This document shows, in pieces, positions 37,004-43,213 of a DNA stretch of 64,000 nucleotides (position 1 is its first letter; the number at the start of each line of letters is the position of its first letter). The notes under the pieces were generated by a model, which saw only the letters and a list, made by a program, of their open reading frames with translations, did no database searches and had not been told where the DNA came from. The DNA lies in assembly GCF_014171595.1 (NCBI RefSeq), contig NZ_CP050451.1:2666001-2730000 (forward strand), read 5' to 3'. The stretch is from Massilia sp. Se16.2.3 (lineage in GTDB: Bacteria > Pseudomonadota > Gammaproteobacteria > Burkholderiales > Burkholderiaceae_D). The position numbers were made by a program, and so were the translations under genes.

Positions 37004-37486
37004 ATGAACCAGCGCCCCGCTTCGTTCTCCAGAGTGATCCTGCTTCTGTGCGCGTCGCTGTGCTTCAGCGCGGCACAGGCCGCCATTCCTCCTGAACAAG
37101 CCGCCTGCAGCGCCCGCCTCCAGGCCATCCGGCCCGACGATCCCAGCTTCAAGCGTCTCGACAAGATCTACCGCCAGAGCCTGCGTTTTGGCGGCACCGT
37201 GCACCGCATCCTTCCCAGCTTCCATGCCACCCACGACGACCTGGTCGCGGCGAAGAGCAGGATGTCCGCGCAGGACATTCCCTACATGGTCTACGAACTG
37301 GCGCAAGCCGAGGAACCGAACGCACGCCAGCGCGTCGCCGTCGGCGTGCTTGGACTGTTCGGCCCGCAGGCCCTGCCTTGCATCGCCGCGGCCATGCTCG
37401 ATGCGCGCATCCCGGGGCGCTTCACGCTCAACCAGATAAGAATCGGTATCGAGGCCGAAAGGGTTTCGACAACCCGTGCGCAGTAG
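37004..37486 (+). CDS. Secreted protein of unknown function upstream of the dockerin protein
   Basis: 160 aa with a good signal peptide ending AAQAA. The mature part is helical, with segments (QDIPYMVYELAQAEEPNARQ, then RVAVGVLGLFGPQALPCIAA) that resemble HEAT-type helical hairpins, and three Cys. It ends 41 bp before the Het-C/VWA/dockerin gene on the same strand, so it may be the first gene of that operon. The AT-rich stretch 36890-36960 upstream is the likely promoter region. I do not recognise a family. Confidence 0.7.
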   Translation: MNQRPASFSRVILLLCASLCFSAAQAAIPPEQAACSARLQAIRPDDPSFKRLDKIYRQSLRFGGTVHRILPSFHATHDDLVAAKSRMSAQDIPYMVYELAQAEEPNARQRVAVGVLGLFGPQALPCIAAAMLDARIPGRFTLNQIRIGIEAERVSTTRAQ

Positions 37487-37527: not shown

Positions 37528-40047
37528 ATGTCACGCAAATTCAACTCCGCGCTTCGCACGGCGGCGCTCGTCGCCGCGCTGGGCGCGGTCGGCAGCTCGT
37601 ACGCCTTTGTCCCGTCGGTGGGGCTGGGGGCGATCACGCCCGGCGAGTCGCACGCGGCCATTACCAAGACCGGCTTGACGACCATCTACGGGGAGCTGGG
37701 CATCACCTCGGTGTCGCGCACGATGGAGCAGGCGCGCGATACCATGCTCGAGGCCAATGCCCAGGTCGACAAGACCTTCGAGACTTCGACCGCCCACCAT
37801 TGCGATGCCGAGAACATCAACCGCTGCAACGAGGTGGTGGTTGCCGCCTTCGATTCGGCGGTGCGCTCGGTGCAGGCGAATAACCTCGACGACGCGCGCA
37901 AGAACTTCGGCGCGGCGCTGCACACGCTCCAGGATTTTTATTCGCACAGTAACTGGATCGAACTCGGCAACAACAGCCTGCATCCGCAGATGGGCCGGCC
38001 GGGACGGGTAACCGGCATCTCGCCGAGCACCTTCAACGGCGACACCACCAATGCGCCCACCTGCATCGAGTCGCCCACCGGCGCCTGCATGCGCAACAAC
38101 CTGATCACGCCGCTGCTGACCAGCGGCTACTACGGCGGCCAGAACCGTGATCGTCCGCCCGGCAAGTGCCGCCACGGCGGCTTCTTCGACAAGTCGCCGG
38201 GTGTCGGCGGCATCAACAAGGACATGGCGGCTTGCCTCGGCACCACCGGCAACGGCCTCTTCGACTCGCCGCACAGCGACCGCCATCCGGAAGCGGCAGC
38301 CCTGGCGGCGCAAGCCACCGCCGACCTGCTGCGCCAGATGAAGGCGAAGGTCACGCTGCGCCAGTTCAAGTCCTTCCTCGGCATCGGCGCGCCGTTTGCG
38401 TTCGCCATCGATACGACCGGCAGCATGGGCTCGGTCATCGAGGGTGTGAAGAGCCAGGTCAACGTGATCATCGACTCGCGTGCGAACACACCGGAAGAAG
38501 CCAGCCAGTACGTGCTGGCGCCGTTCAACGATCCGGGCGTGCCCACCGCGATCGTGACCGAGAACCCGGCAGCCTTCAAGAGCGCCCTGGCCGGATTGTT
38601 CGCCAGCGGCGGCGGCGACTGCCCCGAGCTGTCGATGGCCGGTGCCTACAATGCGGTGGCCGCGGCCGACAAGGGTGCGCAGGTCTACCTGTTCACCGAC
38701 GCCAGTGCCAAGGATTTCTCGACCTACGGTTCGGTGCTCGACCTGGCCAGTACCAAGAAGTCGCGCCTGTTCTTCGCCCTGTTCGGCAACTGCTCGCCCT
38801 ACGACCCCGTGTATTTCGCGCTGGCGCGCAACACCGGCGGCCAGGTGTTCATCCTGAACCGTCCGGAAGCGGCCCAGGTCTCGCGCCTGGCGGATGCCTT
38901 CTCGCGCACCGACACCGTCGACATCCTGACGATTTCCGGCACGCTCACACCCACGCCGCGCACCTACCAGTTCCCGGTCGACAGCCATATCAGCCGCATG
39001 AACCTGTCGGTGGCGCGCACGGCGCCCGGCACGGTCGTGGTCAGGCGCCCGGACGGCTCGACGCTGACACCGACGACGCCAGGCGCCACCGAAATCCCGC
39101 TCAGCAACACCACTGCCTATGCCATCACCACGCCGCAGCGCGGGGTCTGGTCGATCACCGTCAGTGGTTCCGACACCTTCTCGATCCTTGTCAACGGCGA
39201 GAGCGACTTCGCGTTCTCGCAGTTCCAGTTCGTCGAGCCGGGCGGACGTCCGGGCCACAGCGGCGCTTTCCCGCTGACGGGTTCGCCCGCACCCGGCAAG
39301 CAGGTATATGCGCTGGCCAACGTCGGCAGGTTCGCGGTGACCAAGTCGTACGAGTTCCGCAGCCCCGAGGGAAGCGTGCTGGCCCGCTTCGACCTGAGCA
39401 ACAACGACGCCGCCGACCCGACCTCGGAGACCGGGCAGGTCACGATCCCCACGGGTCCCTTCAAGGTGTATGCGCTCGGCCAGGACAACAACCGCAACGC
39501 CTACCAGCGCGTGGTCGGCAACGTCGTCAATCCGCAGACGGTATCGGTCAGCGCGCCAACCGCCGTCGGCCTGCCGCAGGGCCAGGTCACGACCTACATC
39601 TTCTCGGTCAGGAACGACGGCCCGGCCGCGACCTTCCGCTTCAGCGCCATCGACGACAAACGCTTCGTCAGCGGCCTGGCGCCGCAGACCGCGACCATCC
39701 CGACGGGCGGCAGCGCGCTGGTGACGGTGCGCATGACGCCGCCGGCAGGCACCCCGGTGGGCACGGTCTCCACCCTGACCTTCAGCGCCGAGGATGCGAG
39801 CAACCCGGATGCGCGCAACTACGCCAGCCTGTCGAGCAGCGTGATCGCGCCGCCACTGGTGGGCGATGTCAACCGCGACGGCCGCGTCGATTGCGACGAC
39901 CTCGGCATCGTGCGCGCCTCCTTCGGCTCGCGCCCGGGCTCCGGCAAGTTCAATCCGAACGTGGACCTGGACGTCAACGGCGTGATCGACGTGCGCGACC
40001 TCGCCATCATCACCCGCCTGATCCCGGCGGGCACCGTGTGCAAATAA
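37528..40047 (+). CDS. Secreted Het-C-like/VWA protein with C-terminal dockerin
   Basis: 839 aa. Signal peptide (residues 1-27, ending SSYA). An N-terminal Het-C/VWA7-like helical domain (about 35-280) has AALHTLQDFYSHSNWIELGN, an HxxxDxxxH pattern like zinc-dependent phospholipase C. The VWA domain (about 290-460) has a full MIDAS signature DTTGS. Beta-rich regions follow, including a NEW3-like module (QVTTYIFSVRNDGPAATFRF). The C-terminus has two dockerin F-hand repeats: GDVNRDGRVDCDDLGIV and DLDVNGVIDVRDLAII. ATG 37528 follows AAGGGAGGG. The next gene, 20 bp away, encodes a cohesin. Inferred role: a surface adhesin or enzyme held by cohesin-dockerin binding. Confidence 0.9.
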   Translation: MSRKFNSALRTAALVAALGAVGSSYAFVPSVGLGAITPGESHAAITKTGLTTIYGELGITSVSRTMEQARDTMLEANAQVDKTFETSTAHHCDAENINRCNEVVVAAFDSAVRSVQANNLDDARKNFGAALHTLQDFYSHSNWIELGNNSLHPQMGRPGRVTGISPSTFNGDTTNAPTCIESPTGACMRNNLITPLLTSGYYGGQNRDRPPGKCRHGGFFDKSPGVGGINKDMAACLGTTGNGLFDSPHSDRHPEAAALAAQATADLLRQMKAKVTLRQFKSFLGIGAPFAFAIDTTGSMGSVIEGVKSQVNVIIDSRANTPEEASQYVLAPFNDPGVPTAIVTENPAAFKSALAGLFASGGGDCPELSMAGAYNAVAAADKGAQVYLFTDASAKDFSTYGSVLDLASTKKSRLFFALFGNCSPYDPVYFALARNTGGQVFILNRPEAAQVSRLADAFSRTDTVDILTISGTLTPTPRTYQFPVDSHISRMNLSVARTAPGTVVVRRPDGSTLTPTTPGATEIPLSNTTAYAITTPQRGVWSITVSGSDTFSILVNGESDFAFSQFQFVEPGGRPGHSGAFPLTGSPAPGKQVYALANVGRFAVTKSYEFRSPEGSVLARFDLSNNDAADPTSETGQVTIPTGPFKVYALGQDNNRNAYQRVVGNVVNPQTVSVSAPTAVGLPQGQVTTYIFSVRNDGPAATFRFSAIDDKRFVSGLAPQTATIPTGGSALVTVRMTPPAGTPVGTVSTLTFSAEDASNPDARNYASLSSSVIAPPLVGDVNRDGRVDCDDLGIVRASFGSRPGSGKFNPNVDLDVNGVIDVRDLAIITRLIPAGTVCK

Positions 40048-40067
40048 GCTTCACGAAAGGAACCATC

Positions 40068-40656
40068 ATGAAAGCATTCACCAAACTGCTGTTACTGGCG
40101 CTGTCGCTGCTGCTCCTGGCATCGCACCCCGCGCAGGCCGTGCCGATCCTGACCTTGACCACCGATAGCACCAGCGTGGAGCAGGGCGCCGAGTTCAGCA
40201 TCGCCCTCGATGTCGCCGACATCGCCGACCTGTTCGGCTATAACGTGACCATCAACTACGATCCCGCGAAGATCCGCTTCGTCTCCGTCAGCGAAGGAGG
40301 CTTCCTGGGCAGCGCGGGCACGAGCTTCTTCGTTCCAGGCGTCGACGACGGCGCCGGCTCGGTCGCCTTTTCCGGCGCCGCGCTCATCGGAGCGATCGGC
40401 GGCGCGAACGGCGGCGGCAACCTGCTGAACTTCGTGTTTGCCGGCAGGGGGGCGGGCGCGGCCCTGTTCACGCTGTCGGACCTGCTGTTCATCGACTCGA
40501 CCCCCGGCATCGATCGAGGTCGGCGGCGCCTCGCTCGGCGTGGTCGTGCGCGGCACACCGTCCGAGGTACCGGAGCCGGCTTCGCTGGCGCTGATTCTGG
40601 GCGGTGCGCTGGCGCTGGCTGCGCGCCGTCGCGCCGGGTGGCCGCGCCGAAAATGA
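40068..40656 (+). pseudogene. Cohesin-domain PEP-CTERM anchored protein (one frameshift as sequenced)
   Basis: About 195 aa after repair. The signal peptide ends at AQA. The cohesin fold is indicated by TTDSTSVEQGAEFSIALDVA, then DLFGYNVTINYDPAKIRFVSVSEGGFLG and the GSVAFSGAAL strand. The C-terminus is a textbook PEP-CTERM signal: VPEP, a hydrophobic helix (ASLALILGGALALAA) and RRR, which is processed by an exosortase. The break is near 40510-40517; after it the frame reads IEVGGASLGVVV. It is co-directional with the dockerin gene (20-bp gap) and is followed by a terminator. It would sit at the cell surface and bind the dockerin. Confidence 0.88.
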
Positions 40657-40673
40657 GGAACTGAGCTTCCCGC

Positions 40674-40698
40674 AAAAGCCCCGCAGGCCGGGGCTTTT
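40674..40698 (+). terminator. Rho-independent terminator after the cohesin gene
   Basis: AAAAGCCCCG-loop-CGGGGCTTTT, a symmetrical hairpin that can work in both directions. It closes the dockerin-cohesin unit. Confidence 0.85.
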
Positions 40699-40889
40699 GT
40701 GCGCCTGGAGCACGCGAAAGCGAAAACCTGCTTTCATGGAAGGCTGCGGGAGGGGCGGGTTAGCAAAACGATGTGTATTGGAAATATTTTGCATATAATC
40801 TTGGCAATTTTTGTTGACGGTCGATATTTCCTTTGCCGCTGAGCAGCAGGGGGAGGAAGTGTGTCCGTTCCTGATTCCCAAGGATATCC

Positions 40890-43213
40890 ATGCTCAAGTT
40901 GTTGCCGGCAGTCGTAGTGATGTTTGCTCTCTCCGGATGCGGAGGCGGCGGCGCCGACACTCCGGCCCCGGGGAAGGGGGGTGAGGGCCCGCCGTCTCCA
41001 CCGCTTCCAACGTTCTCGGTCGGCGGCTCGGTTAGGGGCCTGGCTGCCAACGCCAGCCTGACGATTCAGAGCGGCACTGGCGCGTCCACGACGGTACCGC
41101 GGACGGCGACTTCACCTTCCCCCAGAAGCTCGTTGCTGGAGGCAGCTATCAGGTTTCGCTCGGTGCAAGCCCGCCGGGCCAGGTCTGCACGGTAGGCGGC
41201 GCGAGCGGAACCGTCGCCGCGGCGGACGTGCGCGGTATCGAGATCCTGTGCAATCCCGCGAGCGCAAGCGTGGTCCAGAGCGGAATGGCGGTGACCACCT
41301 TCGCGGGCTACCCCGGTTCGCAAGGCGAAGGCGACGGCAAGCTGACCGATGCGACCTTCGCTTGCCCTTTCGGGGTCGCGCTTGACGATGCCGACAACGT
41401 GTATGTCACCGATGCCCAGGGCGAATCGGTAAGGAAGATTTCGCCAGCGGGCATCGTGAGTACGCTGGCCAATCCCCTGGACTCGCCCGGCGGTATTGCA
41501 CGCGATGCATCCGGCAACCTGTACGTCGCCAGCACACGTACCGACAAGATTTTCCAGATCAGTCCGTCGGGCGCGCTGTCGTCCACCGCCGTACGGGAGT
41601 GGGGCGGCGCCACGGTCTTGCCGGTTGGCGTCGCCATCGATGGGGCAGGCAATACCTATGTGGTCGGCCGGGGCACGCATGCCATCTACAAATTCAGTCC
41701 CGGGGGTGCTGCGAGCGTATTCGCCGGCGGCGAGAAAGTGGAAGGTTCAGCCGATGGCACCGGTGCTGCGGCACGCTTCAAGCTGCCATTTGGCGTGGCG
41801 ATCGACCCGGACGGGAATGTGTTCGTCTCCGACGAAGGGAACCATACGATTCGCAAGATCACGCCGGCAGAGGTGGTGACGACGGTCGCCGGCGCGGCCG
41901 GGGTAGAAGGTGCCTCCGACGGTAGCGCGGCTACCGCCAGGTTCAGCCATCCCGCTGGCGTGACGATCGGGCCGGGCGGCAACCTGTACGTCGTCGATAA
42001 CGGAAACCGCACAATTCGCATGATCACGCCCGATGGCGTCGTCAGCACGGTGGCCGGTACCGCCCTGGCAACGGGCGCTGCCGACGGATATGGCGCCGCG
42101 GCCAGCTTCAGCGATCCCTACGGTATCGTTGCCGACAAGGCGGGCGCCCTGTATGTGACCGACTGCGGCAACCATACGATACGAAAGCTGATTCCTTCGA
42201 TCGGCACCAGGACCGTCAGCGTGACGCCGCCGCCGATGGTCTTTGCCGAGACGGGGACCGTGACGACGCTTGCCGGCAAACTCGGCGAAGGGGGTTCTGT
42301 GGATGGCACAGGAGAGTTCGCTCGTATATGGAGCGACACCATGCGTGCCATGGACCCGGACGGATATCTCCTGCTCGCCGAGGGCTATCCCACGCATGCT
42401 TTGCGCAAGGTGTCGAAGACCGGCGTGGTCTCGACGATAACGAGAGAAAACAACGCAAACGACACCTTGGCTTATCCGGCGTTCACCTTCGATCCAGCAG
42501 GAAATATGTACACTGCCAAGCGGCGGCCCGGCGGGTCGGTCGAAGGGCTGACGCGGCGTGACACGTCCGGCAATGTGACGACGATTTACGCTGAAGTATA
42601 TGGCGCTCCAGGACTTGGCAGGATCGTCGCCGATGGTTTCGGCAACGTCTATGGCATCGATGGCGACCAGATCGACAGGATCACGGTTTCCCCGGTCAGC
42701 GCGACGGTCTTCGCCGGTACGACTGCCTCGTTCGCGCCACGCTACCATTTCGATGGCCCCGGACCTGTTGCACGTTTCCAGAGCCCGAGTGGCATCGTGG
42801 TCGATACCGAAGGGAATGTGTTTGTCACCGATGCGGCGAATCTGGTCATCCGTAAAATCAGTCCGGATGGGGTCGTCAGCACCTTTGCCGGCAAGGTGGG
42901 GCGCTCGGGTACGGCACCAGGTTATCACTCGGCAGTTGTCGATGGAACCGCAGACGCTGCACGGTTCTATTACCCGCAGGGGCTGGCTATCGACGGCCAG
43001 AATAACCTGTACGTCATCGACAACCATACCATTCGCAAGATCACGCCGAATCGTGAGGTGCGGACGATTGCCGGACTGGCGGGCGTAAAAGGATTCGCCG
43101 ACGGCATGGGCGCGGCGGCCAGGTTCAGCCGGCTGGACTCGATCGTCGTCGACAAGGAGGGAACCATCTACGTCGGCGACAACAATACGATTCGCAAGAT
43201 CGTGCAGAAATAG
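40890..43213 (+). pseudogene. NHL-repeat beta-propeller lipoprotein (one frameshift as sequenced)
   Basis: About 774 aa after repair. The lipoprotein signal ends LSGC followed by a Gly-rich spacer. A small beta domain follows, then many NHL repeats with the pattern GVAIDPDGNVFVSDEGNHTIRK alternating with VVSTVAGTALATGAADGYG. The tandem blades suggest one or two six-bladed propellers. One base is missing near 41092; repair gives the segment around DGDFTFPQKLVAGGSYQVSL. The start follows AAGGATA. Such proteins bind ligands or serve as surface scaffolds; the function here is unknown. Confidence 0.85.

Follow-up and report, generated by a model that had tools for sequence, protein, structure and literature searches.

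Cellulosomes are typically held at the cell by SLH or sortase anchoring. Here we describe a two-gene locus of Massilia sp. Se16.2.3 in which the same protein families occur in another setting: within a stretch of 64,000 nucleotides (contig NZ_CP050451.1, positions 2,666,001 to 2,730,000 of the forward strand; hereafter the window), gene 1 encodes a secreted VWA7-like protein that ends in a dockerin, and gene 2, 20 bp further on, encodes a cohesin followed by a PEP-CTERM sorting signal that lies in a different frame of this sequence. With the cellulosome (e.g. PDB 3l8q, 2y3n) the locus shares both the cohesin and dockerin families and the C-terminal position of the dockerin on a secreted protein. 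It differs in that a single cohesin per anchor gene lies beside a single cargo gene, in that the window genome has no scaffoldin, and in that the module, as it recurs among relatives, has mostly protease cargo, Gram-negative hosts and a PEP-CTERM anchor.

Cohesin and dockerin modules outside cellulosomes were reportedly treated by Peer in 2009, and our profile searches of the PDB also matched the clostridial NagJ cohesin and hyaluronidase dockerin (PDB 2ozn), which we take to be a cohesin–dockerin pair joining non-cellulosomal secreted proteins, presumably without a PEP-CTERM anchor and with the cohesin carried by an enzyme. For anaerobic methanotrophic (ANME) archaea, attachment to the outer layer through dockerin and cohesin has been proposed (PMC9012536, in the passages concerned), and a review of ANME (PMC5244752), in its lines on such modules, calls their non-cellulosomal function unknown; as far as those passages go, the ANME modules share with ours a cohesin and a dockerin outside cellulosomes but have neither known partners nor a known role, whereas the partners described here are adjacent, matched in type and linked to an exosortase signal. 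A further precedent is PEP-CTERM/exosortase (EpsH) sorting, the main text of whose description mentions neither dockerin nor cohesin (Haft, 2006; PMC1569441). PEP-CTERM signals are likewise found on the anchors of relatives, and exosortase genes in the window genome; the difference is that the sorted protein here apparently serves as the receptor of another protein. A keyword-level search of the open-access literature (titles and the starts of abstracts) found no system combining cohesin, dockerin and PEP-CTERM, with the proviso that Peer 2009 might mention one. The three families themselves are already known.

We favour, with a probability of roughly 0.78, a two-gene tether in which a cohesin socket processed by exosortase holds the dockerin-bearing product of the neighbouring gene. 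Gene 1 would be exported as a VWA7-like protein whose dockerin end carries calcium loops, and gene 2, in its working form, would export a single cohesin bearing a PEP-CTERM signal; an exosortase would process that signal and leave the cohesin on the cell surface or within the exopolysaccharide layer, where it would capture the dockerin protein non-covalently. The physical binding, its calcium dependence, the processing of the anchor and its final location are what we infer from these genes, and a role of the VWA7 cargo in adhesion or matrix contact is a guess. The exosortase system would then possibly act as installer of a surface receptor, and the pairing points to couplings of the cellulosome type as a means of holding single proteins at Gram-negative cell surfaces.

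Both partners belong to the families assigned to them. The gene 1 dockerin scores 28.6 bits against PF00404 (curated cut-off 22.9; E = 1.6e-6), and the gene 2 cohesin 34.5 bits against PF00963 (curated cut-off 24.1; E = 2.7e-8); PEP-CTERM (PF07589) is matched in the window at 9.9e-6, so that all three profiles proposed as a check by a preliminary description of this DNA, which had read two F-hand dockerin repeats at the end of gene 1 and a single cohesin in the next gene, find their match. In alignment A3 the gene 1 dockerin has D or N at the calcium-ligand positions of both F-hand loops. AlphaFold models of both domains are confident: the cohesin (40068–40499) is predicted as eight strands with a predicted local distance difference test score (pLDDT) of 89.1, and the dockerin (39856–40044) as two helices with a pLDDT of 95.7. 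Profile searches of the PDB lead to solved cohesins and dockerins of cellulosomes, the best matches being at 1.4e-13 and 5.7e-13, respectively, and on these searches and the models we reject chance domain matches.

The two domains are also each other's only candidates in their genome (5,351,291 bases in a single contig, 98.77% complete). The gene 2 cohesin is the sole cohesin match, and the gene 1 dockerin the sole dockerin above cut-off, a second match having an E-value of 0.556; the two genes are neighbours. An exosortase, which the preliminary description had suggested looking for, is matched above cut-off (family TIGR02602) at two loci.

The pair recurs. Among 294 genomes of the family searched for Pfam cohesin and dockerin, cohesin matches (84 in total) occur in 68, dockerin matches (45 in total) in 38 and both in 28. 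In 21 of these 28 the two lie within about 1 kb of each other, and 18 of those 21 genomes have no second dockerin match. With so few copies per genome of several Mb, we estimate that far below one such genome would be expected by chance. The 20 pairs other than that of the window, which answer the earlier suggestion that the pairing be sought in related genomes, consist of a gene for a dockerin-ended protein of about 1000 amino acids and, after it, a short gene whose cohesin product ends in a PEP-CTERM-type tail, at inter-gene distances of −4 to 147 bp. When the gene 1 protein (P0001) was used to search 62 genomes of the genus, 16 matched, the window included, and all 16 have an adjacent anchor: five of the 15 others are among the 20 family pairs, and the remaining ten have an adjacent anchor match. 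A dockerin neighbour was further seen in a Roseateles metagenome-assembled genome and in two Pseudorhodoferax. An order-level sample of 330 genomes has cohesin in 52 and dockerin in 26; among the matches listed, separate adjacent genes occur only in the window and G018, and neighbouring matches within one long frame in G481, G540 and G597. A pair of the beta type defined below was later found in G307. Alignment A1 of cohesin anchors, run over 388 genomes of the phylum with at most eight candidates scored in each, matched 35, mostly through the PEP-CTERM tail alone.

In all, 43 adjacent dockerin/anchor pairs were collected, mostly from Oxalobacteraceae, in which the module looks concentrated. 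The first 42 are the window, the 20 family pairs, the GDSL loci L096 and L098, nine loci of the genus (L216–L224), and L138–L140, L215, L255, L257, L106, L107, L112 and L113; the 43rd, from G231, was found later. Left aside were dockerins without an adjacent cohesin anchor (L115 of G212, which is of the beta type, L114 of G235 and L105 of G006), the giant open reading frames (ORFs) L124–L130, the GDPD-like rows L116–L123, secretins, a lone cohesin-PEP gene (L095), a Poribacteria ORF in which both domains occur (L141) and a weak cohesin-PEP match with no dockerin matched (L256 of G962). The cargo gene comes first in most pairs; the anchor comes first in G646, G307, Pseudorhodoferax and G231, and the two genes are divergent in the Roseateles genome. 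In G231 (L110, 2191–5820) a beta cohesin with a sorting-type tail, an S8 subtilase and a beta dockerin share one open frame, so that a fusion or a lost gene boundary is possible there.

Reading of the dockerin by the adjacent cohesin is best supported by the types of the two domains. When dockerin tails and the cohesin parts of the anchors were clustered separately, the 42 pairs fell into 35 and 7 on the dockerin side and 35 and 7 on the cohesin side, with identical membership; with G231 there are 35 alpha and eight beta on each side, and the types match in 43 of 43 pairs. The cargo, by contrast, crosses the types: VWA7 proteins go with the alpha type in the window but with the beta type in its congener G646, and GDSL hydrolases go with alpha in L096 and L098 but with beta in L255. 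Two genomes, G144 and G231, have one alpha and one beta pair each. It is this matching regardless of cargo that points to reading by the neighbouring cohesin, in a set whose pairs share descent and were selected by adjacency and whose beta group is small and diverse. Of the anchors themselves, all 24 rows of A1 match PF00963 at E ≤ 0.001 and 20 of 24 match PF07589 at the same threshold (one row being the window cohesin piece, which lacks the tail). The seven beta anchors do not reach the level of the Pfam cohesin family, four matching PF00963 at E ≤ 0.1 (best 0.0042), and all seven match PF07589 at E ≤ 0.1; their alignment to the alpha anchors by hhalign (99.5%, 1e-22, 188 columns) includes the sorting tail, and in the PDB they match a scaffoldin cohesin best (0.0061). 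By these profile comparisons the beta anchors classify as divergent cohesins. Since the partners are adjacent, fall into two matching types and mostly involve one dockerin per genome, binding and specificity are directly testable on small domains, for a class of module whose role has been called unknown, and alpha and beta pairs could act as orthogonal surface-display parts.

The window itself departs from its relatives in one respect. The preliminary description had placed cohesin and PEP-CTERM in one gene, and both signals are indeed there, but in different frames: a profile built from the anchors of relatives matches the cohesin frame at 40077–40502 (4.6e-36) and a second frame at 40552–40632 (6.5e-6), while the cohesin frame itself runs on to a stop at 40662–40664 without a PEP-CTERM motif. 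Judged by a lenient motif test, every anchor but that of the window continues in a single frame into a sorting-type tail (41 of 42, or 42 of 43 with G231). Taken at face value, the break would leave a cohesin without sorting signal, with the VWA7 protein free or on a soluble cohesin and the pair decaying. The two frames of the sequence and the singularity of the window speak for such decay; against it, neither part of gene 2 has lost its match to the anchor profile, and three ordinary neighbours, found by coding-frame scan and direct reading, are similarly broken: the HDOD gene (at about 32.0–33.2 kb, with an HDOD match of 5.9e-13 on one piece), the start of the PAS-GGDEF-EAL gene (near 33.3 kb) and the NHL-repeat protein (near 41.1 kb, 41000–41130). 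Given these breaks in ordinary genes nearby, indel errors of the assembly are the more likely, though unproven, explanation, and we regard a real break in the strain as rather unlikely. The earlier proposal that an exosortase-placed cohesin holds the VWA protein is well supported by recurrence, type matching, the exosortases and the lack of other partners in the genome, and weakened at this locus by the frame of its PEP-CTERM.

Several further observations weigh against the tether. By Pfam the pair is present in just 21 of 294 family genomes and absent from most; dockerins stand without a neighbouring cohesin anchor in G212, G235, G006 and the giant ORFs, and the cohesin-PEP gene of G125 without a dockerin neighbour. 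A mirror-tree analysis was set aside as proof of binding, since the correlation, though present, is unspecific: the partial r is 0.65 between cohesin and dockerin given the catalytic domain, and 0.60 between cohesin and catalytic domain given the dockerin. To our knowledge, the final location of exosortase substrates in Gram-negative bacteria is not settled either. The dockerins that stand alone, and the cohesins found also at the ends of secretins, would fit a scheme in which the two domains do not bind each other, the cohesin being a generic surface domain and the dockerin binding some other partner or just stabilizing the C-terminus. That they are sole partners in the genome, that the adjacency is repeated and that the types match in every pair whatever the cargo makes this improbable. 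A cellulosome in decay or in the making, with one cohesin left of a complex for carbohydrate degradation, appears more improbable still, to the point of being very hard to sustain: the families are cellulosomal and a GH10 enzyme is paired in Pseudorhodoferax, with a near copy in a second genome, but M12B-like proteases, not glycosidases, prevail among the cargo (all 20 family pairs), and the single cohesin match in the window genome means that there is no multi-cohesin scaffoldin, nor does that genome hold several dockerin-bearing glycoside hydrolases.

The tether, if it exists, would serve varied cargo. M12B-like proteases account for 29 of the 43 pairs (20 recognized by Pfam, nine by a purpose-built profile), the 20 family-pair proteins all matching M12B reprolysin-like metallopeptidases; in their alignment the two His and the Glu of the HExxH motif, and the third His, are invariant, and the Gly usual in the longer motif is not. 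The other cargo comprises GDSL hydrolases (G005, G210, G307), a GH10 enzyme in Pseudorhodoferax aquiterrae (L140; L139 is a near copy by sequence), a C39-like peptidase (G089), the S8 subtilase of G231, a PD40 beta-propeller (G618), a PKD-repeat protein from another family of the class (G716), VWA7 proteins (the window and G646) and three proteins, two from G136 and one from G144, with no family besides the dockerin or generic domains. When scanned by themselves, the dockerins of L096, L098, L112 and L215 fall under the Pfam cut-off. It had been stated that no carbohydrate-active domain is present, which holds at this locus and fails for the module at large, given the GH10 pair.

A comparison within VWA7 cargo is instructive. 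Homologous proteins in G235, G201 and G248 (L092, L093, L094) also have a small gene with a PEP-CTERM-like tail next to them, but no dockerin, the match stopping before it, a different C-terminal domain and a partner that is not a cohesin; this next gene, of about 198 amino acids with a signal-peptide-like start, aligns to the cohesin anchors over the tail only. Attachment tail and partner gene thus seem to change together, and these loci are possibly a second kind of cargo/anchor pair. More generally, a modular surface-display system may exist in Burkholderiales and in one or more other lineages of the class, a generalization to which we would give even odds. In it, exosortases would install single-cohesin sockets, each encoded next to its cargo and using one of at least two mutually exclusive codes (alpha, beta); unrelated secreted proteins, among them proteases, lipases, a xylanase-family enzyme and VWA proteins, would plug in, and cargo would switch code by exchanging tail and socket together. 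Such a system would amount to a Gram-negative equivalent of the cellulosome with one socket.

Other cohesin and dockerin genes were met in the same samples. Among 30 cohesin loci of the family sample (of the 84 matches; L004–L033), 16 are secretins (<1e-80), 13 have an adjacent dockerin and one has neither; the secretin profile contained the cohesin part, so weak secretin matches in paired loci were discounted. These secretins, of the kind used in type II/III secretion, end in a cohesin domain and occur in Oxalobacteraceae (also L100 and L102), and no dockerin was matched beside the 16. Eight dockerin rows of about 400 amino acids in the family sample (L116–L123) were set aside: L118 (3283–4524) is a GDPD enzyme (glycerophosphodiester phosphodiesterase) with an internal dockerin-like loop, and the other seven resemble it by eye only. 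Very large open frames of 3,866 to 15,898 codons have an internal dockerin match (L124–L127, L130), and a Candidatus Poribacteria ORF (L141, 579–3401) has dockerin-like and cohesin-like matches in one protein.

Table 1. Features of the cohesin–dockerin locus, in window coordinates.
Feature	Position	Strand	Basis
Upstream 160-aa ORF, signal-peptide-like start, 41 nt 5′ of gene 1	37004..37486	+	ORF list
Gene 1 (P0001), secreted VWA7-like protein, 839 aa, dockerin at C-terminus	37528..40047	+	Pfam matches
Sec-type signal peptide of gene 1, about residues 1–26	37528..37605	+	Sequence, by eye
VWA7_N (PF25107), overlapping Het-C match (22.5 bits, cut-off 21)	37699..38367	+	Pfam
VWA domain (PF25106), contains DTTGS	38395..38856	+	Pfam; motif by eye
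Hemicentin galactose-binding-like domain (PF23560), gene 1	38956..39204	+	Pfam
VWA7 Ig-like domain (PF23619), gene 1	39577..39846	+	Pfam
Type I dockerin (PF00404 match) of alpha type with two F-hand loops	39862..40020	+	Pfam, alignment A3, clustering
Gene 2 cohesin frame (P0003): signal peptide (by eye) and cohesin; off-frame beyond about 40502	40068..40664	+	ORF, Pfam, anchor profile
Cohesin match (PF00963)	40152..40439	+	Pfam and predicted fold
Anchor-profile tail in another frame, including PEP-CTERM (PF07589 at 40567–40632)	40552..40632	+	Pfam, anchor profile
Terminator-like hairpin ending the unit	40671..40701	+	−22.2 kcal/mol, z −3.77

The layout of the locus (Table 1) is largely as first described, including the 20-bp spacing and the reading of gene 1 as a secreted Het-C-like/VWA protein: besides its signal-peptide-like start it has VWA7_N (6.4e-48), VWA_4 (6.2e-41), Ig_VWA7 and a Het-C match (5.1e-5), and the DTTGS of its VWA domain is presumably a motif like the metal-ion-dependent adhesion site (MIDAS). 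The terminator said to close the unit corresponds to a hairpin that a simple terminator scan did not list. The short ORF upstream, which has no Pfam or NCBIfam match, may belong to the same operon as gene 1. An RpoN-type promoter pattern was set aside: 6.7 matches would be expected in the window and three occur, the one closest to the pair (41755) lying downstream of it. Finally, alignment A3 has an invariant Cys in dockerin loop 1 (column 13) and a near-invariant C-terminal Cys (column 62), which could form a disulfide clasp.

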